Positions 5,386-34,622 of a DNA stretch of 64,000 bases are shown here, piece after piece. Numbering within the stretch: the first letter of the stretch is position 1; every line of letters starts with the position of its first letter. Under the pieces are notes generated by a model. The model saw only the letters and a list, made by a program, of their open reading frames with translations. It made no database searches and was not told the DNA's origin. The stretch is from positions 62,001-126,000 of the forward strand of contig CAMTMP010000007.1 in the NCBI GenBank assembly GCA_947073545.1, read 5' to 3'. The position numbers were made by a program, and so were the translations under genes. Source of the DNA: an uncultured bacterium. Lineage in GTDB: Bacteria > Bacillota > Clostridia > Lachnospirales > Lachnospiraceae.

Positions 5386-5622
5386 CTATACCTGCAATTT
5401 ATCTTCTATCATATGTATAAAACCGCCCATTTTCTTTTCACGCACAATTTCCTGTATGGTAAATTGAATTTTAAATGTTTTTTCTATTCTCAATATCAAA
5501 TCAATATACATGATAGAATCCCATCCTCCAATATCCCCTACTGTCATTTCATCACTTATCTCTATGGTTTCATCCCCCACAATACGTCGGAATATTTCCT
5601 GTAATTTATCTCTTACGTTCAA
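5386..5622 (-). CDS. Acyl carrier protein, TTG start coupled to upstream permease
   Basis: 78 aa when begun at TTG 5622. The phosphopantetheine attachment serine lies in DIGGWDSIMYIDLI, the normal (D/G)-D-S context, and helix spacing fits a discrete carrier protein. The TTG overlaps the permease stop (attga), and AAGGAGG lies 10 nt upstream, so translational coupling is likely. A longer reading frame runs further upstream but inside the permease gene in another frame. Together with the AMP-forming ligase at 7376-8866 it suggests loading of an imported or local acid onto a carrier for glycan acylation. This is not the fatty-acid-synthesis ACP by context. Confidence 0.85.
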   Translation of the reverse strand: MNVRDKLQEIFRRIVGDETIEISDEMTVGDIGGWDSIMYIDLILRIEKTFKIQFTIQEIVREKKMGGFIHMIEDKLQV

Positions 5623-11058: not shown

Positions 11059-11093
11059 ACCTGTCTCTCCTCTGGCAGTAAACAAAGAATCCT

Positions 11094-12296: not shown

Positions 12297-12320
12297 GTAA
12301 ATACTCCTTTTCACCGTTTA

Positions 12321-13235: not shown

Positions 13236-13255
13236 TTTATTTCCTCCCATACTGT

Positions 13256-13960: not shown

Positions 13961-13963
13961 TTA

Positions 13964-14683: not shown

Positions 14684-14719
14684 AATTTCCCCTTCTCTCC
14701 GCCGCACCCTGTTCTGAAG

Positions 14720-16558: not shown

Positions 16559-16637
16559 CTTTACATGCCTCCACCTTTATGCTTCTGTATTCTCAGTAAA
16601 TTTTAAAATGTTGTTATTTAACAATTTTTTACTTAAA

Positions 16638-18608: not shown

Positions 18609-18846
18609 CCCCCCCCCTTTTTTTCAGTACCGTAAACGATCTGTTAACTTTTACCAGTGTGTTACCTTTTTGCCCATACAACACTTGTTCCATGCATATA
18701 ATTCCATAAAGCCTTTTCCCCTTGACAATATATATAATGTCTGATGTTTTCTCTAAATACAATTCTCGAAGACACTTCAAAGGCAACATTTCCAGTTCTT
18801 GATCAACTGAATAGATCGCCAACTGTGAAAGTTCTCTCTTAATCAT
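18595..18846 (-). CDS. CBS-like N-terminal part of the split nucleotidyltransferase gene
   Basis: 84 codons from ATG 18846 (AGGAGGAGAATT upstream, a very strong site). The protein has a CBS-like strand pattern (DIIYIVKGKRLYGIICMEQV) and runs through A7-G10 into RGGGGEV and a stop. Removal of one G joins it to the frame at 18608-16638 and completes a CBS pair, so this is probably the true 5' end of that gene. As it stands it would make a short CBS-only peptide. Confidence 0.65.
   Translation of the reverse strand: MIKRELSQLAIYSVDQELEMLPLKCLRELYLEKTSDIIYIVKGKRLYGIICMEQVLYGQKGNTLVKVNRSFTVLKKRGGGGEV
18608..18624 (-). repeat. A7-G10 homopolymer, candidate contingency tract
   Basis: On the coding (minus) strand seven A are followed by ten G inside the CBS/nucleotidyltransferase gene. 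G10 puts the two halves out of frame; G9 or G12 puts them in frame. Long G tracts are known mutational switches for surface-glycan genes and also known assembly-error sites, so tract length should be measured in reads. Confidence 0.8.
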
Positions 18847-18884
18847 AATTCTCCTCCTGATTCCCTCCACATTTTAGAATTTAC

Positions 18885-19016
18885 ACCTTTGTACTTGACC
18901 GCTATAAAGGGGTTCCTGTTCCGGAATGTGTAGGTCGTAAGGCACATAAACACGAGGCTAAAGCAGCAAAGCAAGGCATATCGAACGAATTGCCAACACA
19001 GTTATTGCCTAACACC
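18885..19016 (+). other. Gene-free stretch with possible coding remnant on plus strand
   Basis: The gap between the split gene and the next small gene reads on the plus strand as an open, hydrophilic peptide (LDRYKGVPVPECVGRKAHKH...). It has no start or ribosome site, runs on into the antisense of the next gene, and resembles nothing I can name. It may be a decayed fragment of an inserted gene, or chance. Confidence 0.2.
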
Positions 19017-19355
19017 CTAAAAATTGTAAATATAGGTTGGCAGTTTCTCATCCGTAACTTCCTGACCGTTTTTCTGTCCATTCTCGTCATCTGACTTTGT
19101 CGGTTTATTTTTCATGGCCGCTACAGCGATAACCCTTTTGATGCTTTCCATAATTTCATCATTTTCCCATAAGATATTTAATTCCTCCATCAACTCCGGC
19201 AAAGTTTCAAACATATATTCTCTGATGCAGAGATTCTCGGTTCTCTGCAAAAAATAGCTATCCCTTCTGTGATCAGAATGTAAAAAAACATCCTTGGAAT
19301 AATCATTCACTGCCCACTCATATAACATCTGTTTCTCTTTGTCGTTTTTGTCCAT
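19017..19355 (-). CDS. Small hypothetical protein in glycan operon
   Basis: 112 aa, acidic and mostly helical in appearance, with a good CAGGAGAAAAA ribosome site. Highly charged C-terminal tail (KPTKSDDENGQKNGQEVTDE). No family recognised, no signal or membrane segment. Lies between the class III aminotransferase and the split nucleotidyltransferase; possibly truncated, as sequence after its stop looks like debris. Confidence 0.5.
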   Translation of the reverse strand: MDKNDKEKQMLYEWAVNDYSKDVFLHSDHRRDSYFLQRTENLCIREYMFETLPELMEELNILWENDEIMESIKRVIAVAAMKNKPTKSDDENGQKNGQEVTDEKLPTYIYNF

Positions 19356-19407
19356 TTTTTCTCCTGCACTTAATCAAACTATTGTTTTCCTGTCATTTGC
19401 CGATAAG

Positions 19408-20709
19408 TCAATTAAATTTCCTGAAAACAGGTTTAATTACATTGCCATCAATAAACTTATCCACATCACCATTCAAAGCATCCGCATAAACCTTTACCGC
19501 TTTCTCTGCTGCCTCTAAAGTCCGGTCTATTTCCGTCTCCGTATGCTGGTACGCAATAGCAATATAAGGCATCATAATCCCCTGCTTCATCATCTCATAC
19601 AGAAATACGGTGCGATATTCAAAAGAGGGTTTCCCGTCTTTTCCGCATATCACTAGGTTGGGGGAGCAGGCCGCTCCTTCTGTATATATATATTCCTCTA
19701 AATGACACTTTTTTGCGATTTCCGCCAACCCTCTTGTCATTCTTCTTCCCATATCCCATATATGGTCGGTCACCTGAAATTCCTTGTATACCTTTATTGT
19801 TTCCACAAGTGCTCCTAAACTGCTCATCTCAGCTCCATGCGTTGTAGAAACCAAAAAAACTCTTTCTTTTCCCGGTGTCAGTCCGCCTAAATCCATAATT
19901 TCCCGTTTTCCACCTAGTGCGGCAACAGAAAAGCCGTTTGCCATGCCTTTTCCAAAAGTAACCATGTCGGGTTCTACCCCATAATACTTACAGGCACCCT
20001 GCAAATCCCAACGAAAACCTGTAATCATTTCATCCAGAATATAAACAACTCCATATTCCGTACAGAGTTTACGTACCTCCTGCAAGAAATTATCTTTCGG
20101 CTCTTCGGTATCGCACGGTTCCATAATCAGCGCCGCAATCTCTCCTTTGTACCTTTCAAATAAATCTTTAACCGAAGCGATATTGTTAAAGCTAAACTGC
20201 AAGGTCAAATCCCGAATCTCCTGCGGAATACCGGCTGTCACTGCGGTGCTGCCAATAAACCAGTCGTCATAGGAAAAAAACGCATGTTCCCTGCATCGTG
20301 CAACATACTTTCTCCCGGTAAAAGCTCTCGCCAGCTTCACCGCCGCAGTTGTGACCGTTGAACCGTTCTTCGCAAATTTGATCATGTCAACCCATGGAAA
20401 TAAATCACACATTGCCTCCGCTGCTTCCACTTCAATCTTCGATGCTTTTGTCGCCGTGTTTCCATTATGTATCTGCGCTATTGCCGCTTCCGAAATTCTG
20501 TCATAGTCATATCCGATTGTCACAGATCTGCACGCCATACCATAATCCAGATACTGATTGCCATCGACGTCCCATGTGTATACACCCTTGCTTCGCTCAA
20601 TGACTCTGGGGGCATTTCCCGGAAAGACTTCATCTGTCCTGCTGTATGTATGCGCCCCCGCCGGAATAAGCATATGTGCCCTTTCTCCATATTCTTCGCT
20701 CTTTTTCAT
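19408..20709 (-). CDS. Class III PLP aminotransferase, glutamate-1-semialdehyde aminomutase-like
   Basis: 433 aa. The PLP lysine lies in VTFGKGMANGFSVAALGG; DEMITGFR holds the cofactor Asp region; NTATKASKIEVEAAE and FAKNGSTVTTAAVKLARA are family motifs. HemL-like proteins inside glycan clusters are usually not heme enzymes but transfer or move an amino group on a sugar-like substrate; no other heme gene is present here. Follows the Gfo/Idh gene with a 6-bp gap. Confidence 0.85.
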   Translation of the reverse strand: MKKSEEYGERAHMLIPAGAHTYSRTDEVFPGNAPRVIERSKGVYTWDVDGNQYLDYGMACRSVTIGYDYDRISEAAIAQIHNGNTATKASKIEVEAAEAMCDLFPWVDMIKFAKNGSTVTTAAVKLARAFTGRKYVARCREHAFFSYDDWFIGSTAVTAGIPQEIRDLTLQFSFNNIASVKDLFERYKGEIAALIMEPCDTEEPKDNFLQEVRKLCTEYGVVYILDEMITGFRWDLQGACKYYGVEPDMVTFGKGMANGFSVAALGGKREIMDLGGLTPGKERVFLVSTTHGAEMSSLGALVETIKVYKEFQVTDHIWDMGRRMTRGLAEIAKKCHLEEYIYTEGAACSPNLVICGKDGKPSFEYRTVFLYEMMKQGIMMPYIAIAYQHTETEIDRTLEAAEKAVKVYADALNGDVDKFIDGNVIKPVFRKFN

Positions 20710-20715
20710 CGTTCT

Positions 20716-21681
20716 TTACCCTTCAATCTCGTCAATAATTTTTAGAGTTTCCAAATCTTTCGCAAAATCATAAATCGGTTTTACCCCTTCAATCACATCA
20801 AAAAACATATTTATCTCGTCTGCATACGACGTTTCATTAATCCACTCTGCATATCCTGGCATATGTACATACTTACCTGTCAGAACTTGTATCAATTCCC
20901 CTGTCTGGATGTCCTTTTCATATAAGGAATCAGGTTTTCCATCCCATCTTATATAAATATCCTCGTTTATGACCTCCAGATGTCTGACTGACTGTCTGCT
21001 CACCACGTCTACCAATAGGTTTCCTCTATTGCCATTTTCATGGGTTAACTGAATCAAATAAGTATCTGGAAAATCCAGTTCCAATTGGGTCAGCTTTTGC
21101 TTGATTACGTTTACTCCTGTTATTTTTCCAAAAGCCATCTGCATCCACGGAAGTTCTATGGCTAGATATTCCCTGCATCCATTCGTTTGTCTGTTACTCA
21201 CAAAAAAATCCTTTAAATTATCCCATGGATGCCAATCCGGTAAATACTGGCCTACATGATACTGATACACGCACGGGTTACCATTCTTCCTCACTTTTTC
21301 ACTGATATATTGCATTTCCGACCTGTATATTGGCGTTGACGACAAAAATAGGACTTTATTTTTTTCTTTCGCCAAACACATATTTTCCTCATATAAATCG
21401 TCTATCAAATTAATTTCAGAAAAAATATGACAATCTCTGTTAAGACATTCCCGAATAATTTTTCCATGTGATAACGGGGAGGTACATACAAATGCACAGT
21501 CGAATTTTTTATCCGTATGATCAAGTGACAAATAGCATGGTATATGATACTGTTCACTCACATTTTTTACACGTTCATCATTATTATCAATACCTGTTAT
21601 TGTCAGTTCAGAATCCTTTTCCAGAAGTAGGCGAATTCTTCTTTTTCCCATGGAACCCAAACCGATGACACAAATATTCAT
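20716..21681 (-). CDS. Gfo/Idh/MocA family NAD(P)-dependent oxidoreductase
   Basis: 321 aa. N-terminal Rossmann motif VIGLGSMGKRRIRLL (GXGXXG) and the FVCTSPLSHGKIIRECL region, where family members place the EKP-type lysine; here the block reads HIFSEINLID, so the catalytic Lys of EKP is not obvious. Likely oxidises or reduces a nucleotide-sugar or nonulosonate precursor, comparable in position to PtmF/LegX-type enzymes. GAGAGGATT site before the ATG. Confidence 0.82.
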   Translation of the reverse strand: MNICVIGLGSMGKRRIRLLLEKDSELTITGIDNNDERVKNVSEQYHIPCYLSLDHTDKKFDCAFVCTSPLSHGKIIRECLNRDCHIFSEINLIDDLYEENMCLAKEKNKVLFLSSTPIYRSEMQYISEKVRKNGNPCVYQYHVGQYLPDWHPWDNLKDFFVSNRQTNGCREYLAIELPWMQMAFGKITGVNVIKQKLTQLELDFPDTYLIQLTHENGNRGNLLVDVVSRQSVRHLEVINEDIYIRWDGKPDSLYEKDIQTGELIQVLTGKYVHMPGYAEWINETSYADEINMFFDVIEGVKPIYDFAKDLETLKIIDEIEG

Positions 21682-21721
21682 TTCACAATCCTCTCCATGC
21701 CGCTTGATTTAAGATGCGGTT

Positions 21722-22444
21722 CTATTTAACATGATTTTTATACTCCTGTAACTCCCGAACAGTTCTAACCTCATGATTGTTATAAAGCGCTGGCGGATAT
21801 GGAGGATAACACATTGCACGGACAAACCTTTCCTGCATTTCTTCACTCATGGTTTCATCTATTATTCCATTCATCGGGCATCCTCTTTTAAATACTGTAG
21901 CCTCACCCTGCTGCTCCTTACCCTCGTATCCTTCATCAACCAATCTAACTACTTCCAAGAAATAGTTCATGCTCTCAAACATAACCCTGTTATACAATGT
22001 TAGCTGCGTATCAAAATCTTCTATATGTACTAACTTCTGCAAAATTATTTTGCCCGTATTGCAGCCTTCATCAATATAGTGATATGTAAAACCACAGTCT
22101 TTTTCCCCATGAATCATTGCCCAGGCGATACTGCTGCATCCTCGATATTTTGGAAGTAAAGCCGGATGTAAATTAAAAATCCTGCCTTTTACGCTTTCAA
22201 TCACTTCTTTACTGATTATAAAGCGGTAATAAACGGAGCAAATCATATCAGGTATAAAAGGCATGTTCTCAACGCTGATCTTTTCCAATTTGTACTCTAT
22301 ATTTTTTTTAATACACAAGCCTTCTAAATCTGCAATACTATTACAAGTCTCATGCGTATAAACATACACCGTATGTCCTTTTGCAAGCAATAGTTGTAAC
22401 GCCTTGCAGCCAGCCCAATGATATCCACACAAAATTATTTTCAT
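21722..22444 (-). CDS. Sugar N-formyltransferase (methionyl-tRNA formyltransferase fold)
   Basis: 240 aa. FNLHPALLPKYRG provides the Asn and His of the N10-formyl-THF active site and YIDEGCNTGKII the Asp, so the triad is complete. It is shorter than tRNA formyltransferase and lacks its C-terminal domain, fitting VioF/QdtF-like enzymes that formylate amino sugars. Predicts an N-formyl group on the glycan, consistent with the aminotransferases nearby. Confidence 0.85.
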   Translation of the reverse strand: MKIILCGYHWAGCKALQLLLAKGHTVYVYTHETCNSIADLEGLCIKKNIEYKLEKISVENMPFIPDMICSVYYRFIISKEVIESVKGRIFNLHPALLPKYRGCSSIAWAMIHGEKDCGFTYHYIDEGCNTGKIILQKLVHIEDFDTQLTLYNRVMFESMNYFLEVVRLVDEGYEGKEQQGEATVFKRGCPMNGIIDETMSEEMQERFVRAMCYPPYPPALYNNHEVRTVRELQEYKNHVK

Positions 22445-22466
22445 GAATTTATCATTTCCTCATGCT

Positions 22467-23642
22467 TTACCCAAAACAAGCTTTAGCTATGTGTTCTGCT
22501 ATCACTCTGTTTCCCCTCTCGTTAACGTGGGCATAATCTATGTAAATGTCTTCTGTGTCAAAAATCTCAGTTAAATCAACTATCCATTCATACTCCTGAA
22601 TCGTTTCTTTTATTATCCGTGCAAAATTCTTTGTTCTATAGGCATAACTTTCTTTATGTTCCCTCTTTACTCCCACATATACCAGATTTGACTGGTATGA
22701 CTGTTCCCGATATGACAACGGTTTGGCTCCATTAAAAAGAGCTGGCTGCAAAAAAGATATATGCTTTATGTTTCTCATATTGCAAATGGCATGAATCATC
22801 TTCTGATTTTGCACCCAAAAGTTACATTTTTCACTTAGTTCACCATTGTCAAAACCATTGATGCCATATGAAACTCCAAAACTATGACTGTCAAAGTTCA
22901 AACCATTCATATTTCTTTTCTGTATTAAGTGCTGGCATATCTGCCTCATGTAAAAATTGATATAAGGGTATTCTTCCTCAACCTGCATATCGTTTACGCC
23001 GCTATAGTTTAAAATAATATCGGGATTTAATGAAAATCCGTCTCTTATCAACTTAAATAGTTCCTCTGAAGACGCATAACCGGCTACTCCGCCGCACATA
23101 ACGACATTGGATATTCCCTTTTCATTTAATACCTCATGTAAGCATTCCGACCAGGACTTAAAAGAATAAATAGATGCATCTGTCGTACTTCCTCCCAGTG
23201 TCAAAATTCGTAATTCCGCTTTCTCCTTATCCCCAAAAATACAAAATCCCGCCGTGTCTTTTTCTTTTGTCTCAAGATTATAGCCCATTACCGGATCATA
23301 ATAATACGGCAGTAAATTGCTTTCCTTGCTGAAACGCTCGATATTTTTATAATTCACACCCATTTGGAGCCCAACTTCCGACAATGTCTTCTGGGCTTTG
23401 AAAAAATCATCTTTTGCCACAATAACCATGATTTCATCTATATCTTCGTACAGCAAATCATATATCTGACAGCAATCATCCGCACCATCTTCCGACACTT
23501 CATAAGCCAAATCTACGTCCACGAGTTTTAAGATTTTTCTTACCTGTTTCCTATATTTTTCATCCGCAAATAAAATCATTTTATATTGTCTTGAATCTTC
23601 AATTAATTCCCAAAGGCTGTAATCGCTAATGACTCTCAGCAT
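22467..23642 (-). CDS. SGNH/GDSL-type hydrolase with N-terminal Rossmann-like region
   Basis: 391 aa. LTLGGSTTDAS carries the nucleophile Ser (block I), VVMCGGVAGYASSEE the Gly block, NYSGVNDM the Asn block and DYAHVNERGNRVIAE the Asp-x-x-His block, so the catalytic set is complete. Family members are O-acetyl esterases or acyltransferases. Residues 1-130 carry a sensor-like fold. Paralogous to the protein at 24854-26446. No signal peptide, so it probably acts on cytoplasmic intermediates. Confidence 0.82.
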   Translation of the reverse strand: MLRVISDYSLWELIEDSRQYKMILFADEKYRKQVRKILKLVDVDLAYEVSEDGADDCCQIYDLLYEDIDEIMVIVAKDDFFKAQKTLSEVGLQMGVNYKNIERFSKESNLLPYYYDPVMGYNLETKEKDTAGFCIFGDKEKAELRILTLGGSTTDASIYSFKSWSECLHEVLNEKGISNVVMCGGVAGYASSEELFKLIRDGFSLNPDIILNYSGVNDMQVEEEYPYINFYMRQICQHLIQKRNMNGLNFDSHSFGVSYGINGFDNGELSEKCNFWVQNQKMIHAICNMRNIKHISFLQPALFNGAKPLSYREQSYQSNLVYVGVKREHKESYAYRTKNFARIIKETIQEYEWIVDLTEIFDTEDIYIDYAHVNERGNRVIAEHIAKACFG

Positions 23643-23645
23643 TCC

Positions 23646-23990
23646 TCATTCCCCCTGCACCCATATGCTGTTTCCCTCGTAGGAAGATAAATTAAAATCA
23701 TATAAAACCTGAAATCCCTCCTGCTCCAGCATTTCTGCTCTATTCATATGATCGAGGCCGCCAATAACAATAATTGTCTCGCTCTTGCAATTTTTTAATT
23801 CTTCTAACGTTATTACGGATTTATTCATGATCTTGAGATTTGTACTCTTCGCTTCAGGGTCACAAAAACAGCTTACATAAACCTCATTTTGTAAAAGTGT
23901 GGTAAATGTGAGAACAGCCTTTTCATCAATTCCATAAATCACAATTTTCTTATCCTCAAGTAAAGGATTTTTTATATACAATGGTTTCAT
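23646..23990 (-). CDS. Stand-alone PglD-N-like Rossmann module
   Basis: 114 aa. KIVIYGIDEKAVLTFTTLLQ followed by a VSCFCDPEAKS strand and TIIVIGG matches the N-terminal nucleotide-sugar-binding module of PglD-like proteins, without any transferase domain. The same module is fused to other proteins of this cluster. Strong GGGGGAAGT before ATG, 3 bp before the SGNH gene. Possibly works with that enzyme as a split pair. Confidence 0.6.
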   Translation of the reverse strand: MKPLYIKNPLLEDKKIVIYGIDEKAVLTFTTLLQNEVYVSCFCDPEAKSTNLKIMNKSVITLEELKNCKSETIIVIGGLDHMNRAEMLEQEGFQVLYDFNLSSYEGNSIWVQGE

Positions 23991-24001
23991 ACTTCCCCCT
24001 G

Positions 24002-24802
24002 TTACTGCCTATCCCGGCTTACTTTCGATAAATTAAATGAATAATATAAATGTTCCTTCCTGTCCCTTTTCATTGGAAATGCACTTCGAAATTGTTCGAC
24101 ATCATCCGTAAGATCATACTCTAACACCATTTTCTGCATACCCGCTTCCAACCGCACCTCACCATTCGGATCAATCACACAACTATCACCTGCGTAAGTC
24201 AATTCCCCAACATTTCCTACACAGTTAACTCCAATCATATATACCTGATTCTCAATTGCTCTGGCTCTCAGCAAGCATTTCCAATGTCCCCTTCGTTCCA
24301 GCGGCCAGTTAGCCGGCACCAATATTACATTTGCTTTTGAGGACGCTGTCTGAAATATTTCCGGAAACCGCAAATCATAACATATACATGTGGAAAATGT
24401 GATGCCGCCAAGTTCAAACAACACAATATTTTCTCCGCCTTGAAATTTCCGCTCCTCTCCCGAAAAAGAAAAGGGATGTATTTTTACATAATCCGAAACT
24501 ACTAATCCTTCTCTATTAATAACCGTATAGTGATTTTCTGATTTTTCTCCACAATCTTTTACCCAGCCAAACCCTATCGCCGTCCGATATGTTTTTGCAA
24601 AAGACGATATTTTATCTATCGTCTGCATATCGCTTTCTTTTGTTCTGGCTGTATTCATGGAAAATCCCGTAAAACTCATTTCCGGTAATAGCAGCAGATC
24701 AACTGTTTTGTCACCTTGTTCTTTAAGTATATTTTCTAATTGAGAGTAATTTTTCCATTTGTCCTCCCATGCGATATTCATCTGATATAACCCTATTTTC
24801 AT
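24002..24802 (-). CDS. Carbon-nitrogen hydrolase (nitrilase superfamily, omega-amidase-like)
   Basis: 266 aa. The Glu-Lys-Cys triad is visible in LLLPEMSFTGFS, YVKIHPFSFSG and STCICYDLRFPE. Close in layout to Nit2/YafV-type amidases. In this operon it may remove an amide nitrogen, the opposite of the asparagine synthase, or supply ammonia. GAGGAGAACG site before ATG. Substrate unknown. Confidence 0.87.
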   Translation of the reverse strand: MKIGLYQMNIAWEDKWKNYSQLENILKEQGDKTVDLLLLPEMSFTGFSMNTARTKESDMQTIDKISSFAKTYRTAIGFGWVKDCGEKSENHYTVINREGLVVSDYVKIHPFSFSGEERKFQGGENIVLFELGGITFSTCICYDLRFPEIFQTASSKANVILVPANWPLERRGHWKCLLRARAIENQVYMIGVNCVGNVGELTYAGDSCVIDPNGEVRLEAGMQKMVLEYDLTDDVEQFRSAFPMKRDRKEHLYYSFNLSKVSRDRQ

Positions 24803-24853
24803 CGTTCTCCTCGACTACACCAATAGATTGACTCCCTATATTCCCATATCTTT

Positions 24854-26446
24854 TTATCTTATTTCATTCTTGATCACATCATAAATTGCATCCGCGATTA
24901 TTTTATTGCCTTTTTCGCACACATGGCATATATCCATATACACGTCGTGTACATCATCAAAAACAGATGACAAATCATAAATAAATTCATATGCATTTTC
25001 CCTTTTGCGGCTTTGCAGCTTATCACGAAACCTCTCTTGCAGATATAATTCTTCTTCATAAAACTGACGAGAAGACATATAAATCTCCTCCTCTCTCATA
25101 TCTCTTGATTTACTCATGAGCATCGGCTGTAAAAAGGAATAACATTTCATGTTTCTTAATTCAGCTAAACCATGTAATAGCTCCATATTATCTATCCAAT
25201 TATCAAATCGGCTCCCCGCAAAAGATATACCTTCACAAAATTGCCCGCCGATCTGCTGCTTTACATATTCGTCCTCCATGCGGCCTGCACCAAATTCAAA
25301 AATTTCTCTTGCATATAAAAAGGAATACGGGTGTACCGGATTTCCCTGACAGGTGTCATTGTAGCCGTCAAATATAATAACCATATCCGGTTTCATCGGC
25401 AGAACATCCCTTATAAACTTTATTACTTCATGTGATGATGTATAGCCGGCCACACCACCGTTCCATACTGTCACATTTCTATCCGCAAGCCGCTCAAACA
25501 TAATCTCTGGCCACGACTTAAAACCGAATAAATGTCCGTCTGTAGTAGAACCGCCTAATGTTACAATTTTATAGCTGTCTCTCTTATATTCTCCACAAAC
25601 GCAAAAGCCCGGATATTCTTGGCAAATGTTTCTCTCCGGCAGCCTTAGGCCTGCATACTTACTGATGCCTACAAAACTATTTCCAAGATTAATGTCCAGA
25701 GCATTTTGCCTTACAAACAGATAATGTAGAGCAAATGGTTCCGACAACACAAATTTGTCCAAATATTGAAATCCCAGTTCTCCCATTTTCCTAACTGCCT
25801 GTCCTGTATGACAACCGGAAATAATTACAATTCCATTCTCTTCATATAAGAAATCTTCTATACAATTTACAGGATATCCATCTATCTCTTCGAGTTTTTC
25901 TGCTCTTATCGTTTCATAATCTTCATAGAATCCTTTAAAGTGAAAATCCAACAGCCTGACATATTTGGCAAATCTCGCCGCTTCATCACTTGTCCCATAC
26001 ACAAAAACCGGTTTATCGCATAATAACCGTTCCATCTCGGTAATTCTATATACCCTGAGATAAGTTCCCGTTTTTAGATAGAATCCTTCAGCATTATCAT
26101 AATATGTATATTTTGTGTCGAACTCTGCATTTCCCTCCAAAATGCGTACCTTGACAGGACGGCAGACTGCATAATTCACGTCCGTGTCAGCCACTACGAT
26201 TGCTTCATTTTCATCCAATACAGTAATATCCACAATTTCCTTATGAAAAATTTTTAAGCCAATGTCCCTACTATGATCAGAAGCAAAACCGTCCAAATAT
26301 ATTTCATAAAACAAAAACAGCTTAAATATATTTAAAATATCTTTTCTAAATATTTCATTCCTGTCAAACCATATGTATTTTTTCTTCTTTGTAAAAATCT
26401 GTGGATTAAGCACATACTCTTCCACATTTTCCATTCTATTTGTCAC
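24854..26446 (-). CDS. SGNH/GDSL-type hydrolase fused to Rossmann module
   Basis: 530 aa from GTG 26446 (AAGGAG at 5 nt). N-terminal 120 residues unassigned; about 135-230 a PglD-like module (KPVFVYGTSDEAARFAKYV); about 285-528 the SGNH domain with LGGSTTDGH, WNGGVAGYTSS, FDGYNDT and DICHVCEKGNKIIAD, giving Ser, Gly, Asn and Asp-His. Paralogue of 22467-23642. Probably an esterase or acyltransferase acting on a precursor, inferred. Confidence 0.82.
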   Translation of the reverse strand: MTNRMENVEEYVLNPQIFTKKKKYIWFDRNEIFRKDILNIFKLFLFYEIYLDGFASDHSRDIGLKIFHKEIVDITVLDENEAIVVADTDVNYAVCRPVKVRILEGNAEFDTKYTYYDNAEGFYLKTGTYLRVYRITEMERLLCDKPVFVYGTSDEAARFAKYVRLLDFHFKGFYEDYETIRAEKLEEIDGYPVNCIEDFLYEENGIVIISGCHTGQAVRKMGELGFQYLDKFVLSEPFALHYLFVRQNALDINLGNSFVGISKYAGLRLPERNICQEYPGFCVCGEYKRDSYKIVTLGGSTTDGHLFGFKSWPEIMFERLADRNVTVWNGGVAGYTSSHEVIKFIRDVLPMKPDMVIIFDGYNDTCQGNPVHPYSFLYAREIFEFGAGRMEDEYVKQQIGGQFCEGISFAGSRFDNWIDNMELLHGLAELRNMKCYSFLQPMLMSKSRDMREEEIYMSSRQFYEEELYLQERFRDKLQSRKRENAYEFIYDLSSVFDDVHDVYMDICHVCEKGNKIIADAIYDVIKNEIR

Positions 26447-26464: not shown

Positions 26465-27880
26465 TTAAACGGATTCTATCAAGCTAACAATATTGCTGAC
26501 ATCCTTTTCTGATACCTCATATGTTGTGGGAAGATTAATCCCCATTCTTGAAATTTTTTTACTTTTTTTGCATTCTTTTGCATACATTTTGTAAATATCC
26601 ATTTCACTCAACGGTATAAAAAAGCTCCTCGCATCAATTCCGTTTTCTTTTAATTTTTCCAGTACCCTGTCTCTTTTCCCCTCCTCCACAAGAATAGACA
26701 CAAGCCATGTAATCTTCTTTCTTCCCGGAAGGTCGTTTCTCTGTATTATGATATCCTCTCTCCCCAAAAACGCCTTTCGATATTTTTCTTCGAGTTTAAA
26801 CCTCCACTCTAAAATATCCTCTATGCGTTCTATCTGTGCTACGCCGACCGCAGATTGCAAATTTGTTATTCTGTAATTAAAGCCCACTGCCTCGTGATAA
26901 TATTTTCTCTCTTTGCTCATACCATGGTCGCGCAATATGCGCATTTTATCATTCAATTCTCTGCTGTCTGTAACGCACATTCCTCCCTCTCCGGTTGTAA
27001 TTACCTTATTTCCAAAAAATGAAAAACAGGAAATAGTTCCAAAAGAGCCCACTTTTTTACCATCCCACTCGGCGCCATGCGCTTCCGCACAATCCTCGAC
27101 AACATATAAATTATTATTTTTTGCTATGTCGCATATCCTTCCCATATCACAAGGCTGTCCATATATATGCACAGGAATAATTGCCTTCGTTCTTAATGTT
27201 AACGCTTTTTCTACTTCGTTCGGATCTATACACCAACTATCTTCCTCAATATCAACAATAACAGGTGTAGCTCCTGTATAAATAACAGCGTTAATAGTTG
27301 CCGCGAAAGTGATGTCAGGTACAATCACTTCGTCACCCTCTCCGATTCCCAGCGCTGTGAGCGCCAAATGAAGTGCGGTAGTTCCGTTTGAAACCGCAAC
27401 CCCATATTTTGCTCTACAGTATTTCGAAAAATTTTCTTCAAACTGTGTGACATACTTACCGGTACTGGATATCCAAGTAGATAAAAAGGCATCTATAAGA
27501 TACTTATATTCATTTCCGGTCAAATGTGGCTGAGCCAATGCTATATGCATATTTTTGTTATATTCCGCATAATTCACCAGCTTCATGGTTTCATCCACAA
27601 TCGGAATAACCTTTACTCCGCTGTCAAATTTCTTTGCAATATCTTTAGAATCATCATTTACTGTCGCATATACAAACTCTCTGCGCATATACCTTTGCAC
27701 CGAATCGTTCATTCCGCATCCATTAATGAGAAGTCTTCGGATATCCCCGTCAGTCATAACTCCTACAAGTCTGCAAGAATCATCTGACAGAAATGCAATT
27801 CCTTTAAAATTACTTTCAATGCATACCATAGTCTCTCTAATTGTCGCTCTATAGCTGCATATCAATTTTTCCAGTTCCAT
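26465..27880 (-). CDS. DegT/DnrJ/EryC1 aminotransferase with N-terminal CBS pair
   Basis: 471 aa. Residues about 1-115 look like a CBS pair (GVMTDGDIRRLLINGCGMNDSV). The aminotransferase follows, with the PLP lysine in FFGNKVITTGEGGM and the ATNAVIYTGATPV and DCAEAHGAEW blocks. The family transaminates keto-sugar nucleotides, e.g. in pseudaminate/legionaminate and perosamine routes. The CBS part may bind a nucleotide and regulate the enzyme. Perfectly placed to supply an amino sugar to the NeuB-like enzyme. Confidence 0.92.
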   Translation of the reverse strand: MELEKLICSYRATIRETMVCIESNFKGIAFLSDDSCRLVGVMTDGDIRRLLINGCGMNDSVQRYMRREFVYATVNDDSKDIAKKFDSGVKVIPIVDETMKLVNYAEYNKNMHIALAQPHLTGNEYKYLIDAFLSTWISSTGKYVTQFEENFSKYCRAKYGVAVSNGTTALHLALTALGIGEGDEVIVPDITFAATINAVIYTGATPVIVDIEEDSWCIDPNEVEKALTLRTKAIIPVHIYGQPCDMGRICDIAKNNNLYVVEDCAEAHGAEWDGKKVGSFGTISCFSFFGNKVITTGEGGMCVTDSRELNDKMRILRDHGMSKERKYYHEAVGFNYRITNLQSAVGVAQIERIEDILEWRFKLEEKYRKAFLGREDIIIQRNDLPGRKKITWLVSILVEEGKRDRVLEKLKENGIDARSFFIPLSEMDIYKMYAKECKKSKKISRMGINLPTTYEVSEKDVSNIVSLIESV

Positions 27881-28776: not shown

Positions 28777-29826
28777 TTATAAAATATCAATAATCTCATC
28801 CACCTTGTAATCTCTTACAGCTTCTCTCCCCACAGTATCATCAAAGTACACAGCAGAAATACCTTCCCCATTGGTTCTTTTAGCCACAATGTTTTCTGCT
28901 GTAAATTGCTCCCCACAACATATTTTGCGGCTTGCAACAATACACTTTTGCAATGATTTTCTCGTCATCTGTTCAGAACACGTGGGCATCTTTACGCCAT
29001 CTCCCAAATACTTTTCAACTCGTCTGATATCCGTCACAAGCCGTTTAAGTTCTTCGGGTGTTACTGATGCCTTGTGATCCGGCCCCTCCATATTTTTATC
29101 AAGTGTAAAATGCTTTTCTATCACTTTCGCGCCAACAGCCACCGCAAATGGAGATGCGCCAACCCCCTGTGTGTGATCTGAATACCCGACCAAAACATCA
29201 AACGCATCCCGAAAGGTACGAATCACATTTACGTTCGCCTCTGTATCTCGGATCGGATAATTTGCTGTACATTGCAATAAAACAACATCCCTGTTTATTG
29301 GATATATCGCTTCCAGAGCCCGTCGCACTTCCTCTTGGTAACACATACCCGCTGACAGGATAATCGGCCTCCCCTTCTCCGCCACCTGTCTCAAAAACTG
29401 GATATTAGTCAAATCCGTAGCTGCTACTTTAAAAGCAGATACTCCCATCTCATCTAGTTCGTCAAGGCTTGCCTTTTCGAACGGTGTGGAGAGAAACATA
29501 ATATTTTTTTCTTTACAATATTGCATCAATTCCTGAGTCTGTACCCGGGTAATTTCCAAGCGTTTTAACATTTCGTATTGCGTTTCGCTGCTACTGGTTG
29601 TCACGCTCTGGTATGGCGCTTTCCTTACATTTTTTAAAATTAAATTATCCGCCTTAAATGCCTGAAATTTTACCGCATTCACGCCAGCTTCTACTGCCGT
29701 ATCAATCATTTTTTTTGCAAGCGTCATATCTCCGTTATGATTGACGCCCGCCTCCGCAACGATAAACGTTGATGAACTGTCAGAAATCGTATAATTACCA
29801 ATTTTAATCTCTCTATTGAATCTCAT
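28777..29826 (-). CDS. NeuB-like nonulosonic acid synthase (sialate/legionaminate/pseudaminate type)
   Basis: 349 aa. FIVAEAGVNHNGDM, AVKFQAFKADNL, FLSTPFEKASLDEL and VGYSDHTQG are NeuB TIM-barrel motifs; the last 60 residues (KSLQKCIVASRKICCGEQFT) are the SAF antifreeze-like domain. Condenses an amino hexose with phosphoenolpyruvate. The exact product cannot be read from sequence. GGAGG before ATG. With the cytidylyltransferase at 13964 it defines the nonulosonate character of the glycan. Confidence 0.93.
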   Translation of the reverse strand: MRFNREIKIGNYTISDSSSTFIVAEAGVNHNGDMTLAKKMIDTAVEAGVNAVKFQAFKADNLILKNVRKAPYQSVTTSSSETQYEMLKRLEITRVQTQELMQYCKEKNIMFLSTPFEKASLDELDEMGVSAFKVAATDLTNIQFLRQVAEKGRPIILSAGMCYQEEVRRALEAIYPINRDVVLLQCTANYPIRDTEANVNVIRTFRDAFDVLVGYSDHTQGVGASPFAVAVGAKVIEKHFTLDKNMEGPDHKASVTPEELKRLVTDIRRVEKYLGDGVKMPTCSEQMTRKSLQKCIVASRKICCGEQFTAENIVAKRTNGEGISAVYFDDTVGREAVRDYKVDEIIDIL

Positions 29827-29851: not shown

Positions 29852-31213
29852 CTATGGGCACTGTATCATTACCGACATTTCTGCCTCCTCGCACAACTGC
29901 ACCACCGAACTCTGATCCCCATAATATGCATCAGAAATCCCCACCGCCCGGTCCAGATCCGCCGAGTCATCATAGATTCCCCAGCCTTCCGCAATATACC
30001 GCTCGCGCAGCTTCTTATACCCTTCCCAAAGCTGCGGCCTCATGGACTCAATCGTCGCCTGGATCAGCGGGTGCGGCCTCCAGAGAAGCGCCACAGTATC
30101 TTTATTTTCCTTAAAGCACTCAAACACCGACTCCATCTTTTTCAGCATATTTTCATCATGAACCAATATCGCGCTCACGCTGGTATTGTAGAAAATAATC
30201 TTCTTCCAGCTTCCGTCCGGCTTTTCAATCACCTTCAGCCACTCCGCCGGAATCTCCAAATCCTCTTTTTTCATATTTAAAACTTTATCAACTTTCGGAG
30301 AACCAAGCCCAAGAAACTTCTTTTCTAAGAATTTCCTGTCTACATGCTCGCCCGGAAGTCCCATCTCTTTTGCTTCTTTCAGATATTCATTGATATAAAT
30401 CTGGCGCATCTTTTCAGACTGCACGACTACCCGGTGCGCATAAATCGTCCCCGGCGTAAAACAGAAATGCTTCATACCATCGATTTTGTCCTGATCATCA
30501 GGCTCTATCTCAGTTAATAAGAAATAAGGAATATACACTAACTTGTCAGTGAAATTTCTCAGGTTTTTTGAATAAAAATAGGGGTGCACACTGGTCACAT
30601 GGTTGCACTCATCATAAGGATTATGAATATAGATTAGATCCGGCCTGCGCTCTTCCAAATCATACTCGTCATACCGGGTAATCGGCACATACTCCGGATA
30701 CAAGTCTCCCTCGTAATGTTCCTCCCTGAAACTCCCGTCCGGATTCTTATCAAAATAGGGAATCGGAATCACATAAGCATCACAGTTAGGGTCTTCATCT
30801 GCCGCCCTCCACACACTCTCCAAGGAATCCCACATAGATGCTTTATATGGAAGAAACACAACCTCCTTTTTGTCGTCAGGCAGATCATATTTGATGCCAT
30901 TCCGCAGGCTGGTTAATTGTTTCTGGATTTTCTTTGATACTTTCCTACATGCATTTTCATCAGACAGGCTCTCGCTCATCTGATAGATATTTTCACAATA
31001 ATCCTCAAGCGTGTGCACAAGTGGCGCAAATTTTTCATCTAGGGTGTCTATGTAAGTGCCAAGGGCAATTGCAGACTCCTGACACTGCACCAACGCTTCC
31101 GCCACTCTCTTCGGACTAGACACAGCGGTTTTCACAATGGCATCGTTGGCACGAAGCAGCGTATCCACAGTCTGAAGCATATCTCTTTTTCTGTATCTCT
31201 CCACCACTGCCAC
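29852..31213 (-). CDS. CDP-glycerol glycerophosphotransferase-like GT-B protein
   Basis: 453 aa with the start taken as GTG 31213 (ATG 31180 also possible). N-terminal 120 residues are helical; the rest shows VVFLPYKASMWDSLESVW and, near the C-terminus, LLWRPHPLIQ and ISDAYYGDQSSVVQL, a pattern of CDP-glycerol:polyglycerophosphate transferase-like proteins. First biosynthetic gene of the operon after the tnpB-like/ncRNA head. Codon usage looks GC-richer than the genes after it, so it may have a separate origin. Predicts a phosphoglycerol- or polyol-phosphate-like step, by analogy. Confidence 0.6.
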   Translation of the reverse strand: MAVVERYRKRDMLQTVDTLLRANDAIVKTAVSSPKRVAEALVQCQESAIALGTYIDTLDEKFAPLVHTLEDYCENIYQMSESLSDENACRKVSKKIQKQLTSLRNGIKYDLPDDKKEVVFLPYKASMWDSLESVWRAADEDPNCDAYVIPIPYFDKNPDGSFREEHYEGDLYPEYVPITRYDEYDLEERRPDLIYIHNPYDECNHVTSVHPYFYSKNLRNFTDKLVYIPYFLLTEIEPDDQDKIDGMKHFCFTPGTIYAHRVVVQSEKMRQIYINEYLKEAKEMGLPGEHVDRKFLEKKFLGLGSPKVDKVLNMKKEDLEIPAEWLKVIEKPDGSWKKIIFYNTSVSAILVHDENMLKKMESVFECFKENKDTVALLWRPHPLIQATIESMRPQLWEGYKKLRERYIAEGWGIYDDSADLDRAVGISDAYYGDQSSVVQLCEEAEMSVMIQCP

Positions 31214-31289
31214 CCTCTTTCTGCTTCGGCTCTTACCCGCCGTGCCAGCTCGATTCCGCTTTGCTTCATCTCGCTGCTGGCTTTCGCCC

Positions 31290-31627
31290 TATAGTCTCGG
31301 GTAAGAACAGAAAAGTGTCTGCAAGCTGCCATTTTCTGTTCTTACCCGAGACTGCACGGCTCATTTAACAAGGCATATTGGTCACCCAAACAGGTGATGC
31401 GGAAATCCGCTTCGCTCCCGGTACGTCTTCTTCTCAGAAGTTCCCAAGGGTCCTGGCATACCCAATACCCGGTCTAAACCGGCTTCTAATGCCGTTTGGC
31501 GTTACGGTTTCGAATACCGCAAATTCGTTTCGCCTTTTAATCAAAAGAAATTTCCCACAGTCCTACTCCCAAGCCCGGTTTTGGTAAAATGCTCCCTCCA
31601 GGAAACATTCATCTGTGAAAGCCTTCA
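31290..31627 (-). ncRNA. Candidate guide (omega-like) RNA of the tnpB-like gene
   Basis: A 400-bp gene-free stretch immediately 3' of the tnpB-like stop. Read on the minus strand it has a dense series of short hairpins: CGGT/ACCG, GCC-AAAC-GGC, CCGGT-TTAG-ACCGG, GCGGA/TCCGC and TCACC-TGTTTG-GGTGA, ending in the 22-bp hairpin at 31293-31353. TnpB guide RNAs lie exactly here, overlapping or following the gene's 3' end, with the guide at the RNA's 3' side. Boundaries and guide cannot be fixed by eye. Confidence 0.5.
31293..31353. repeat. Perfect 22-bp inverted repeat with 17-nt loop
   Basis: Left arm 31293-31314 begins AGTCTCGGGTAAGAACAG; right arm 31332-31353 is its exact reverse complement; the loop is 31315-31331. 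Neither side is followed by a T-run, so it is not an ordinary terminator. The core TCTTACCCG recurs once more at about 31231 (GGCTCTTACCCGCCGTGCC). It may be the 3' part of the guide RNA or a transposon-end relic. Confidence 0.85.
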
Positions 31628-32932
31628 TTATGATCTTGCCTGCCCGCGTTTTAGGGCATTCTTCGCCGCATTCTCTCTCTCGGAAAGTTTTGCGCCACAG
31701 GCTTTACAGGAAAAAACAGCATTCCCCTTTTCCCCAATTGCGCCACACTGGCTGCATTCTCTACTGATGTCTTTTCCAAACACTTCTATCAAATGAATGG
31801 ACTGTTCCTTACATTTCTGGTTCAGTCGGTTTCTCACATATCCTCTCTGCCACATGTTGACAGAGCTATTGATTCTTTTATTGACACCTGCTTTAGAACT
31901 TTGCGGCAATTTGGGAAGATAGATGACTGCCGGTTTCTCTGTTCGCAGCATCCGGTTAATTTCTGCATTAATATAAGTATGCAAAGCCTCTTCCAGTCTC
32001 TCCCTGCCCGCTGTATACTTTTTTCTGCCGGGATTTTTCTCCTTATTCTTGCGATATCGAATGTTGCCCTCCCTGACATACTCCGAAAGGGCATACTGAT
32101 AATCACTGTATTTATCCCCGTAAATGCTGCCACTGTCTGTCACAAACATAGTGCGGATTCCCACTGCCAGCCCGATTTCCCTGCGATAATCCTCATGCTG
32201 CCTGACTCTCATCTCTACCGGTGCATGGATCACTACATTTCCCTCGCCGGGAAAAATACGAACATAGAGCTGTTTCGCATAACGGTTATTGTCTGTGAGC
32301 GGTATAAAAACCCGCTTTCTCTTTTCTTTTATGGCAAGATAGATGCCGTGGTCATCGTAACGATACGCTTTCTTGGATATGGAAAACCCGTCCACGGCAT
32401 CTGTATGCATTTTCCTCAAATGCCTGCGCACCTGTCTGCGCAAGTACTGGTTCAGGCGTTTCTCCTCCACGCCCGCCCGCACTTCCTGAAATGTTTTTTC
32501 CCATGCCTCGGAGAGCTGTAATTCTTTTTCCAGAAGAATTGCTTCAAAGCAATCACTCTGTTTCATGACAAACCGCAGATAATGTCTGTCCTCCGGCGAC
32601 AGGTTCTCATTTTCCCGAATACACTTCTCAATTCTGCTCTTGGTCTGCGTCCATTGATTCTTGATATCGCCCAGCGCGTCAAAAACCGCCAGATAAAAAT
32701 AAACTGAAGGCAGACCGAGACTCGCCCGCAAGCCGCTCGCCGTCATTTCATTCTGTACCGTATAACCGGGATAAATTTTAGGCAGGCTTTTCATTCCGCC
32801 ATAACGTTGATACACGTAATTTTTGACTGCTCTGTAATCCTTTGCGATCTCCTGCAGCTTTCGCATATCGGTTTCAGGGATGGGTTCCCTATTATATTGG
32901 CGGACTGTCTTACATATGGTACTTGACGGCAT
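31628..32932 (-). CDS. TnpB-family protein, probably nuclease-dead RNA-guided DNA binder
   Basis: 434 aa. The OrfB/TnpB architecture is clear: N-terminal helical region, RuvC-like half, and C-terminal zinc ribbon CSQCG...CKACG followed by ERENAAKNALKRG. But the RuvC-I block reads REIGLAVGIRTMF where active enzymes have GIDxG; RuvC-II reads AVIYLPKLP instead of xxxEdL; RuvC-III reads SERENAA instead of DRDxNAA. All three catalytic acids thus appear lost while length and zinc ribbon stay intact. No TnpA (Y1 or serine transposase) is nearby. This fits domesticated TnpB-like repressors (TldR-type) rather than a transposon. First gene of the glycan operon; next to the invertible promoter segment. 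Confidence 0.75.
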   Translation of the reverse strand: MPSSTICKTVRQYNREPIPETDMRKLQEIAKDYRAVKNYVYQRYGGMKSLPKIYPGYTVQNEMTASGLRASLGLPSVYFYLAVFDALGDIKNQWTQTKSRIEKCIRENENLSPEDRHYLRFVMKQSDCFEAILLEKELQLSEAWEKTFQEVRAGVEEKRLNQYLRRQVRRHLRKMHTDAVDGFSISKKAYRYDDHGIYLAIKEKRKRVFIPLTDNNRYAKQLYVRIFPGEGNVVIHAPVEMRVRQHEDYRREIGLAVGIRTMFVTDSGSIYGDKYSDYQYALSEYVREGNIRYRKNKEKNPGRKKYTAGRERLEEALHTYINAEINRMLRTEKPAVIYLPKLPQSSKAGVNKRINSSVNMWQRGYVRNRLNQKCKEQSIHLIEVFGKDISRECSQCGAIGEKGNAVFSCKACGAKLSERENAAKNALKRGQARS

Positions 32933-32968: not shown

Positions 32969-32993
32969 TTCGCAGAATTGGGTATTCTGCGAA
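32969..32993 (+). repeat. Left inversion site (palindromic arms, centre TGGGT)
   Basis: Arms TTCGCAGAAT and ATTCTGCGAA flank a 5-nt asymmetric centre TGGGT. The whole 25 bp is the exact reverse complement of 34584-34608. Two 10-bp half-sites around a short crossover region is the standard layout of a tyrosine recombinase core site. It lies 37 bp upstream of the tnpB-like ATG. Confidence 0.85.
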
Positions 32994-33029: not shown

Positions 33030-34172
33030 CTATTGCTGACCACATAACTGACCATAATCAGCGGAGAGAGCATTGATGTATTTCCGTTTCGTATCCATGC
33101 TGGGATGCACATATCTGTTCAAAGTAATCTGCACATTGGAATGTCCCAGAATTTCGCTGAGGCTTTTGACATCCATTCCACTATCAATACAGTTTGTGGC
33201 AAAGGTATGCCTCAAGATATGAAAGTTATAATTAGGGGCATTGATTCTTTTTAGATATTTTTTAAAATGGTTTTGATAAGTCCGCGGTTCCATCGGTTTA
33301 TTATTCTTCAGGACATATACATTCCCGTCTTGATGAAACTTAGTGAGAAGAGATAACATTGTGTCTGATATGGGAACTTCCCTTTTAGAGAAAACGCTTT
33401 TAGGAGGCGTTTCTAAAAGAACGGTTTTTGTCGAACCCTCCTTACTTTCAATTCTCTGTACGGTTCTATTGACGTGAAGCAATCCTTTTTCCTGATCTAT
33501 ATCGTCCCACTTTAATGAGCATATTTCTCCCAATCGAAGCCCGGTAAAAAGACAAAGATAGATTCCTGCCTTGGAAATGTCCATGTCACTACAGAGAAAT
33601 TGTATTAACCGGGCCTGCTCCGTGCGATTCATAATTTCAATCGCAGGCAGTCTCTTGTGCAGAGAACTGCTTGTAATAATCGGCATGGGATAACCGTACT
33701 GTTTTTCAGCATAGTGCATAGTCTGTTTGATGGCGGCAAGGACACTTTGCCTAGTGGAATCAGATACTTCCAATACAGCTATCTGCGCTTGAATGTGACT
33801 GTTGGACATTCGGGAAAGTTTGTCGGTAGAAAAAAGAGACTGGATATGACAAGTATAAAGCTTTTTATATTTAATATAAGTAGAGTGTTTTCTGTTCTGA
33901 GCCACCTCATCCAGCCATTCCTCCATAAGCGCGCAAAAATTAGTATCGCAGATCTGTAGCTGCAGTCTGCCGTTTTTCTGAGAATTTTGCAGGATAGGGA
34001 CATCTGTTCTATTTAATAGATACATCTTGGCAGTGAGTTTTTCTTTCACTTCACTGTAAGATTTTCCATAAATAGATAAATATCGTTTCCGGCCGTCTTC
34101 AGAAATTATCTGATATCTTCCTTCCCACCTTCCATCTGTACGTTTTCTTATGTTATCACCTCGTCTTGGCAT
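33030..34172 (-). CDS. Tyrosine site-specific recombinase (integrase family)
   Basis: 380 aa. N-terminal arm-type domain (RKRTDGRWEGRYQ), SAM-like core-binding region about 85-140, catalytic domain with Arg in TGLRLGEICSLKW, HILRHTFAT (His-x-x-Arg), GHSNVQ, and nucleophile Tyr in TLNRYVHPS. All catalytic residues are present. AGGAG precedes the ATG. As it is located inside the inverted-site pair it is the natural invertase for it, like Mpi/Tsr-type promoter inverters. Its own promoter may be TTGTCA/TATATT around 34200-34230 on the minus strand (19-nt spacer, weak). Confidence 0.92.
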   Translation of the reverse strand: MPRRGDNIRKRTDGRWEGRYQIISEDGRKRYLSIYGKSYSEVKEKLTAKMYLLNRTDVPILQNSQKNGRLQLQICDTNFCALMEEWLDEVAQNRKHSTYIKYKKLYTCHIQSLFSTDKLSRMSNSHIQAQIAVLEVSDSTRQSVLAAIKQTMHYAEKQYGYPMPIITSSSLHKRLPAIEIMNRTEQARLIQFLCSDMDISKAGIYLCLFTGLRLGEICSLKWDDIDQEKGLLHVNRTVQRIESKEGSTKTVLLETPPKSVFSKREVPISDTMLSLLTKFHQDGNVYVLKNNKPMEPRTYQNHFKKYLKRINAPNYNFHILRHTFATNCIDSGMDVKSLSEILGHSNVQITLNRYVHPSMDTKRKYINALSADYGQLCGQQ

Positions 34173-34258: not shown

Positions 34259-34471
34259 TTGAGTTTAGCGGAATTGTTTTTTGCTCACAATTTCTATGAT
34301 TTTGAATCAACCAACACAATAGAAAAGCAGGAGATTCTAAACCGGTTTCTCCGGCAGAGCAGGAGGAAAAATTATGAGCTATGTATGACACAGAAAAGTG
34401 GAATTTATGAAGATCTATATCTTGACTTTATAGAATTTAGAAAAGATTATAGTTTTAATACCAAAAGATGA
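34259..34471 (+). other. Small open frame, possible gene remnant
   Basis: 70 codons from a TTG with no ribosome site. The peptide (LAELFFAHNFYDFEST..., rich in charged residues) looks protein-like but matches nothing I know. It lies upstream of the outward promoter and inside the invertible segment, and the remaining 34173-34583 sequence has no other gene. Could be a decayed gene or chance. Confidence 0.25.
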
Positions 34472-34494
34472 CAGCACTGTCTATCGAAGTAAAA

Positions 34495-34523
34495 TTGACA
34501 AACACCCTTATGTAGAGTATAAT
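34495..34523 (+). promoter_or_regulatory. Consensus sigma-A promoter inside the invertible segment
   Basis: TTGACA at 34495-34500, 17-nt spacer, TATAAT at 34518-34523: both hexamers are perfect. Predicted start is near 34530, about 54 nt before the right inversion site. No gene follows it on this strand before the antisense end of the histidine kinase gene, so in this orientation it appears to drive nothing useful. Confidence 0.85.
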
Positions 34524-34583: not shown

Positions 34584-34614
34584 TTCGCAGAATACCCAAT
34601 TCTGCGAATTTTTT
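34584..34614 (+). terminator. Right inversion site doubling as intrinsic terminator
   Basis: 25-bp site 34584-34608 (arms TTCGCAGAAT/ATTCTGCGAA, centre ACCCA) followed by a T-run (34609-34614). On the plus strand this is a 10-bp stem, 5-nt loop and U-tract, so transcripts from the outward promoter should end here. On the minus strand at the left site the hairpin is followed by AAAGTTATT, without a U-tract, so read-through is expected there. Confidence 0.7.
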
Positions 34615-34622
34615 AGTTACTC

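Follow-up and report, generated by a model that had tools for sequence, protein, structure and literature searches.

A family of nuclease-dead TnpB-like proteins with an adjoining structured RNA heads probably phase-variable surface-glycan operons in gut Lachnospiraceae

We found a family of nuclease-dead TnpB-like proteins (dTnpB), each followed by a conserved structured RNA, at the head of operons for surface glycans. The window, a stretch of 64,000 nucleotides from an uncultured member of the Lachnospiraceae, holds one such cassette, whose predicted order is invertible promoter, dTnpB, cognate structured RNA and glycan genes. Judged by comparison of sequences, the dTnpB cassettes suggest that gut bacteria control their surface through a kind of RNA-protein switch that has so far escaped notice.

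The window dTnpB (31628..32932, minus strand, 434 amino acids) was aligned with four TnpB-type proteins from plasmids or phages. The four zinc-ribbon cysteines are retained, and the three RuvC acids are replaced (D to A256, E to P340 and D to R419). A preliminary description of this DNA had proposed by eye a full-length TnpB-family protein that keeps its zinc ribbon and lacks all three RuvC acids, and the alignment bears this out. Three of the four outgroups are from Thermus and one is from N. labii; all three Thermus proteins carry Q at the third RuvC position, so the basis for the call there is the N. labii protein together with the TnpB motif DRDxNAA. The protein matches the Pfam family Cas12f1-like_TNB above its cut-off (2.3e-8) and the NCBIfam family guided_TnpB below it (9.6e-15, 54.7 bits, cut-off 100), and it has no match to the NusG families of Pfam and NCBIfam. 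The family profile (A2) also matches PDB chains of TnpB and Cas12f, mostly across the C-terminal part. The C-terminal zinc ribbon and RuvC-type sequence are shared with the TnpB of IS607/IS605 and with Cas12f/Cas12m, but dTnpB lacks the catalytic acids and no TnpA-like gene was recognised beside it in the window, where the annotation is partly by eye; its neighbor is a tyrosine recombinase. Elsewhere in the same genome, the TnpB zinc-ribbon family gave only one other match, a second dead copy (C4:99901-101214). No close active TnpB relative appeared among the plasmid and phage matches listed (20 of 31 plasmid records), which have 20-31% identity.

A scan of genome contigs confirmed 170 relatives, mostly with Lachnospiraceae titles among those used. 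The family set (n=82) comprises the best 80 of these 170 and the two copies of the window's own genome; because of this sampling, more distant members may differ. All 82 members exceed 400 amino acids, have no internal stops and retain the four zinc-ribbon cysteines, and all have lost the active site: A or S occupies the first RuvC position, one of P, V, A, M and I the second, and K or R the third. The hallmark of IS200/IS605 and IS607 elements, a transposase beside a TnpB with an intact active site, was not found: the active site is gone from all 82, and beside the window copy no TnpA was recognised. In close pairs with a finite estimate, dN/dS is 0.05-0.16; dTnpB is under strong purifying selection in these pairs. 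The view of the protein as a nuclease-dead, domesticated TnpB, as had been suggested, is upheld.

The family was detected in 11 of 61 genomes (own included), all of them among the 37 genomes of the genus and none among the 24 of other families. The S. musculi genome encodes seven full-length cassettes; carriers in culture include Sporofaciens musculi, Schaedlerella arabinosiphila and Acetatifactor muris. Two divergent dead TnpBs (G014 C1 and G034 C121, loci L118 and L123) have 36-37% identity; by eye, the surroundings of L118 include a similar recombinase, and the first glycan gene there is of the same kind as elsewhere. The RNA of this divergent subfamily has core motifs in common with the others, though not the full RNA model described below. 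One copy is a pseudogene (G036:C24:113250-114697), with its RNA retained before an open first glycan gene. Locus L080 holds an inverted duplicate of the N-terminal region of dTnpB and upstream DNA (4936-6346, roughly -1065 to +346 relative to the start of the ORF). The arms of such inverted duplicates are exact over 442 nt in L080 and over 135 nt upstream in L055, a shufflon-like arrangement.

Upstream of the window dTnpB lies a segment bounded by two 25-nt inverted repeats. The near repeat, the likely recombination site TTCGCAGAAT-N5-ATTCTGCGAA (32969..32993), is 100% complementary to the far repeat (34584..34608), its exact reverse complement. Between them are a tyrosine recombinase of 380 amino acids (33030..34172, minus strand; Pfam Phage_integrase, 3.6e-30, NCBIfam Xer-type matches below cut-off) and a promoter, TTGACA-17-TATAAT, that agrees with the consensus at 12 of 12 positions (34495..34523, plus strand). 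With inverted repeats flanking a promoter and a recombinase at hand, the segment is a predicted inverton. As assembled, the promoter points away from the dTnpB ORF, and no consensus promoter was detected within 500 nt before the ORF in this orientation; after inversion, the promoter would stand 121 nt upstream of it. The window is probably in the OFF state, because the sole 12/12 promoter points away from the ORF. This state is one that we infer, since a weaker promoter-like site before the recombinase (CTGTCA-17-TATAAT, 10/12, 34446..34474, minus strand) faces the same way as dTnpB and read-through is possible. Each inverted repeat is a palindrome with a run of T after it on the plus strand, and so itself scores as terminator-like there. 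The second copy in this genome has the same layout, its repeats lying at -1580 and -43; a search there for promoters with one mismatch or none came up empty in both directions.

Paired recombination sites are widespread in the family. Of the 72 loci that have 1.7 kb or more of upstream sequence (10 of 82 were dropped), 57 have paired sites, 13 a single site and two none; this count is not independent, since these upstream regions also supplied the motifs. In the downstream regions that served as control, one of 70 has a pair and nine have a single site. The pairs comprise 18 of type A, the window type, and 39 of type B, whose segments are 143-167 bp. With at most two candidates listed per orientation, the perfect promoter of class A faces in at four loci, faces out at nine and is absent at five, and the class B promoter TTGAC[TGC]-17-TAGAAT faces in at three, faces out at 16 and was not seen at 20. 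Both promoter orientations thus occur among homologous loci, each locus being in one assembled state. By motif, 11 of the 72 loci have a tyrosine recombinase within 2.5 kb upstream, five a serine recombinase and 56 neither. The serine recombinases stand upstream of dTnpB at class-B loci (L032, L042, L043, L061 and L071); the one that was checked matches XisF, Mpi and the IS607 transposase (2.3e-7), all below cut-off. The serine recombinase of these five loci could be a former IS607 partner turned invertase.

Downstream of dTnpB, the preliminary description had noted about 330 nt of densely folded sequence (31290-31627) as the place of a guide RNA. The folded stretch is a real structured RNA with strong covariation. 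Its folding energy is weak (z = -1.76 for the window RNA), so folding density alone would not prove an RNA. Its extent is also revised: the conserved core (model R1, minus strand) spans 31367..31497, a partly conserved 5' domain extends from it towards the stop codon, and 31286..31360 forms a separate hairpin. The core consists of closing pairs and five inner helices. Four conserved blocks, ACGGCATTAGAAG, GGTATGCCAGGACC, GTACCGGGAGCGAAGC and CCAATATGCCTTATT, follow the dTnpB stop codon and are separated by stem-loops of variable length; a pattern search found their order kept in 75 of 80 loci. From 42 sequences, RNAalifold predicted 30 pairs, 21 of them changed on both sides. In the same alignment, a 26-pair model has 96.0% of cells paired, compared with 77.7 +/- 0.8 in shuffles, and its covariation score is 0.590, compared with 0.244 in shuffles and 0.07-0.14 when the model is slid. 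The GGCAT of the first block may pair with the middle ATGCC, where 8 of 42 sequences are mismatched at one position, or with the last one, where 15 of 42 are.

The 5' domain (31500..31627, minus strand) reads CACAG, a hairpin, TTTTACC and GGACTGTG, and its partial conservation is judged by sequence comparison. The hairpin at 31286..31360 (minus strand), after the variable tail of the RNA, has 29-nt arms that are 90% complementary and may be a further leader element. In L003, a hairpin about 276-360 nt past the dTnpB stop has arms that have changed yet still pair, and the leading motif of the window hairpin is also present in L060. Eukaryotic miRNA hairpin models that a permissive Rfam search placed on this stem were rejected as chance matches. 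No Rfam family matches the RNA in the window at the gathering score, and the covariance model of EAR (epsC) has no match in the window.

The RNA and the protein are almost always found together. R1 matches adjoin dTnpB in all 82 loci and occur nowhere else in the 1.01 Mb of these loci; the model was trained on 42 of the 82, and the other 40 were all matched as well, including two that are truncated where their contigs end. The 61 genomes contain 14 matches, 13 of them beside dTnpB (one of these the pseudogene); the last, in G002, lies just 176 nt away from the end of its contig. Five genomes, chosen because they already held family members, have 17 R1 loci, all beside dTnpB (16 full length, one split). 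The model matched L183, on a viral contig, and L123 weakly (E 0.053), and left L118 unmatched. R1 is lacking beside the two divergent proteins (G014 C1 and G034 C121) and beside N-terminal dTnpB fragments, which occur in G003 and S. musculi.

The genes after the RNA run in the same direction as dTnpB. In the window (all on the minus strand), the first encodes a protein of 453 amino acids without a Pfam or NCBIfam family (29852..31213), followed by a NeuB-type sialate/nonulosonate synthase (28777..29826; Pfam 3.9e-90, TIGR03569 above cut-off) and a protein with CBS and DegT/DnrJ/EryC1 aminotransferase domains (26465..27880, Pfam). The rest of the row (18..26446) comprises, mostly by eye, genes of sugar-nucleotide and surface-glycan type and ABC transporter genes. 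Within it, ABC transporter and acyl-CoA-ligase-like genes (5619-9635, by eye) are an unusual cargo. Elsewhere in the window, 62497-63747 encodes near-identical repeats of about 14 amino acids (YEKKIEQDRLAHEQ...) and looks by eye like a transposase of the PD-(D/E)XK type. The earlier proposal of a phase-variable nonulosonate/capsule-type operon is upheld, in that the operon is of the nonulosonate/glycan kind and probably phase-variable.

Across the family, 77 loci have a following ORF of 150 amino acids or more, and in all 77 it runs in the direction of dTnpB (the other five have none in reach); of the downstream ORFs overall, 341 of 343 do so. The distance from the RNA end to the next start codon is 22-464 nt, with 21 of 77 loci at 45 nt or less. 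The commonest first gene belongs to the cluster of 29852-31213, without a Pfam match (43 loci; the listed kinds total 78). Three of ten cluster representatives have no Pfam family; the others are a DegT aminotransferase, a GDP-mannose dehydratase-like protein, LicD (represented by its single member located upstream), a cytidylyltransferase-GFO/IDH protein, a GT2 glycosyltransferase, an ATP-grasp protein and a nucleotidyl transferase. The sampled operons after the RNA hold surface-glycan enzymes.

Five comparisons of paralogues in S. musculi and Dorea sp. 5-2 show about 250-320 nt of upstream DNA, dTnpB and the RNA in common. In three of them homology ends 5, 11 and 17 nt past a conserved CTTATT, and in the two comparisons with L168 it stops before a second CTTATT; L168 and L170 also have one further upstream stretch in common (66%). 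The common upstream part includes paired sites in Dorea L037 and L038, and only one recognised site in S. musculi L053 and L057. Because paralogue homology ends near the RNA end, the cassette has the look of a module that was put in front of different operons.

Our tentative preference, at somewhat less than an even chance, is for a leader ribonucleoprotein with a cis effect on its own operon; a guided repressor of the TldR type comes second. With the promoter facing in, dTnpB, the RNA and the glycan genes would all lie on one transcript. Once the switch is ON, dTnpB made from the first gene would bind the leader RNA of that very transcript, and the complex would act in cis on the long operon that follows. 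The most likely step would be RNA polymerase read-through of leader and operon (antitermination), or else attenuation as feedback. Recognition of the RNA by the protein, and not a DNA-matching guide, would confer specificity. The order of promoter, protein, RNA and operon fits the leader ribonucleoprotein, as do the almost one-to-one association of the RNA with the protein and the fact that the module ends close to the end of the RNA. The dTnpB matches that lack R1 speak against it. A scan of 18000-35000 on both strands found 13 terminator-like sites, compared with 10.6 +/- 3.6 in shuffles; as this is no clear excess of intrinsic terminators, a target of antitermination is not seen in the scanned part, and Rho may play a role instead.

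The strongest rival is an RNA-guided repressor of the TldR type, whose 3' tail would pair with an alternative surface gene or a sister operon so that one cassette in the ON state silences another; we consider it only a little less probable than the leader reading. A dead TnpB with an inactivated RuvC triad and a structured RNA directly 3' of its gene, where the guide RNA of a TnpB sits, is what defines a TldR in part, and the presence of several cassettes per genome (seven in S. musculi) speaks for this reading too. According to PMC13418256, TldRs work with a DNA guide and are associated with flagellin, csrA-tldR loci carry hin and inversions of about 120 bp, and a phage tldR-fliC system exists. 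The dTnpB loci resemble this csrA-associated gut clade in the dead RuvC, the TnpB ancestry, the RNA encoded 3' of the protein, the recombinase or inverton upstream, the surface-structure cargo, the several loci per genome and the phage-borne relatives. This reading keeps its standing because the TldRs described in PMC13418256 are guided and the csrA-tldR loci have the same inverton layout.

Searches of the window's own genome with four tail patterns found no convincing target. The variable tail (31350..31366, minus strand) occupies the place of a TnpB or TldR guide. A 12-nt pattern from it matches only itself exactly; with at most one mismatch there are 25 matches in all and 5 in a reversed control, an excess that favors a guide. 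The 17-nt tail matches nothing but itself below three mismatches (15 matches at up to three, 8 in the control). A 14-nt frame shifted into the scaffold finds itself and two places at one mismatch, where we estimate about 1.4 by chance. The 16-nt tail of the second copy finds itself and then two places at two mismatches (32 in all, 29 in the control). The search proposed in the preliminary description, for a 10-20-nt genomic match to the RNA 3' end, returned only the RNA itself as a convincing match, and a further mark of a TldR, a guide with a genomic target next to a TAM, was not found for guides of at least 12 nt in this genome.

Comparisons among loci also weigh against a guide. In four genomes (own included; 18 tails, two of which, the second ones of L178 and the window, are false motif finds), tails matched sister cassettes no better than foreign ones, except that the Dorea tails L179 and L180 match one another with one mismatch. 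The match of the tail to its own upstream DNA (up to 1.8 kb) is 6.41 nt versus 6.51 nt for background in 74 loci, without excess, and downstream DNA is at background too. Over 206 pairs of relatives, tail positions 7-16 (identity 0.31-0.33) are no better conserved than positions 17-41 (0.30-0.33). About 16 nt of tail are kept in a few pairs (15/16 in both L037/L038, which stand before different operons of the same genome, and L001/L003), a likeness that a guide could explain. Each of the first six positions past CTTATT is 83-98% A/T in 80 loci, which is odd for freely chosen guides. A guide of at least 12 nt with a target in its own genome, as the TldR comparison had implied, is not supported so far: neither own tail has a convincing second match, and the tail is not conserved past position 6.

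An improbable third reading is that the ribonucleoprotein acts on the switch itself, binding near the recombination sites or the promoter and biasing inversion or regulating its own expression. The constant closeness of dTnpB to two types of site, with tyrosine or serine recombinases near some loci, would suit it, but the tail does not match its own upstream DNA above background, and the two types of site found with this single protein family are unrelated. That the gene is a functionless remnant of an IS200/IS605 or IS607 element beside the operon, as TnpB ancestry, the pseudogene in G036 and the weakly IS607-like serine recombinase might suggest, is in our view refuted by the 82 intact copies with uniform active-site loss, the purifying selection, the covarying RNA and the conserved position.

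A fuller version of the cis-acting leader reading, which we hold to be less likely than not as a whole, is that dTnpB has lost its DNA guide and become the partner of a cis leader RNA, that antitermination or attenuation chooses among glycan operons behind invertible promoters, and that the cassette of promoter switch, dTnpB and RNA (1.7-1.9 kb) has spread between operons, possibly with prophages. In one IMG/VR contig (IMGVR_UViG_3300035516_000911, locus L202, 485-12213), an integrase-like ORF, an endolysin and a DNA invertase (the last two by PHROGs) precede a dTnpB cassette, which is followed by the RNA and glycan-type genes. Lysogenic conversion of the surface glycan is possible from this arrangement; as the cassette is near the contig end, flanking host DNA is a possible source too. 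Two further viral scans with other queries yielded no second cassette-bearing contig.

Several known systems share parts of this design. Bacteroides capsule loci have an invertible promoter, UpxY/UpxZ as first genes and the Mpi invertase, and EAR (epsC) is a leader RNA element before a long biosynthetic operon; elsewhere the niche of antitermination is held by UpxY, RfaH, LoaP or EAR. The dTnpB loci resemble the Bacteroides loci in the invertible promoter, the regulator placed first in a surface-polysaccharide operon and the several loci per genome, and the serine recombinases at five loci of class B recall Mpi, the one that was checked resembling it weakly; here, however, the regulator is a TnpB derivative and not a NusG paralogue, and a large conserved RNA follows it. 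TldRs are reportedly associated with ABC-transporter genes as well. The dTnpB family, which we compare with TldRs by description, differs from them in its glycan operon in place of flagellin or csrA, and in an RNA that lies in the leader before co-directional genes and for which no guide target was found. The LoaP-dfn system, as described in PMC12691694, has a leader RNA element before a long biosynthetic operon. The dTnpB operons share this arrangement with LoaP-dfn and EAR of Bacillota, but the window has no Rfam match and the protein is a different one; the window's own genome has one NusG-like match to LoaP, below cut-off.

No report of a dead TnpB before glycan operons was found in the open-licence literature, among the matches listed, in keeping with the view that the association is new. 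We know of no precedent for TnpB as an antitermination factor, and to our knowledge little is known of the control of surface-glycan operons in gut Lachnospiraceae. Our findings would bring a new structured RNA, and with it a large domesticated TnpB family, into this control of surface glycans that are probably phase-variable. Should guided cross-repression be true, the cassettes would be a natural CRISPRi-like means for mutual exclusion of surface polymers; should the guide-free leader complex be true, they would represent a new use of the TnpB ribonucleoprotein.
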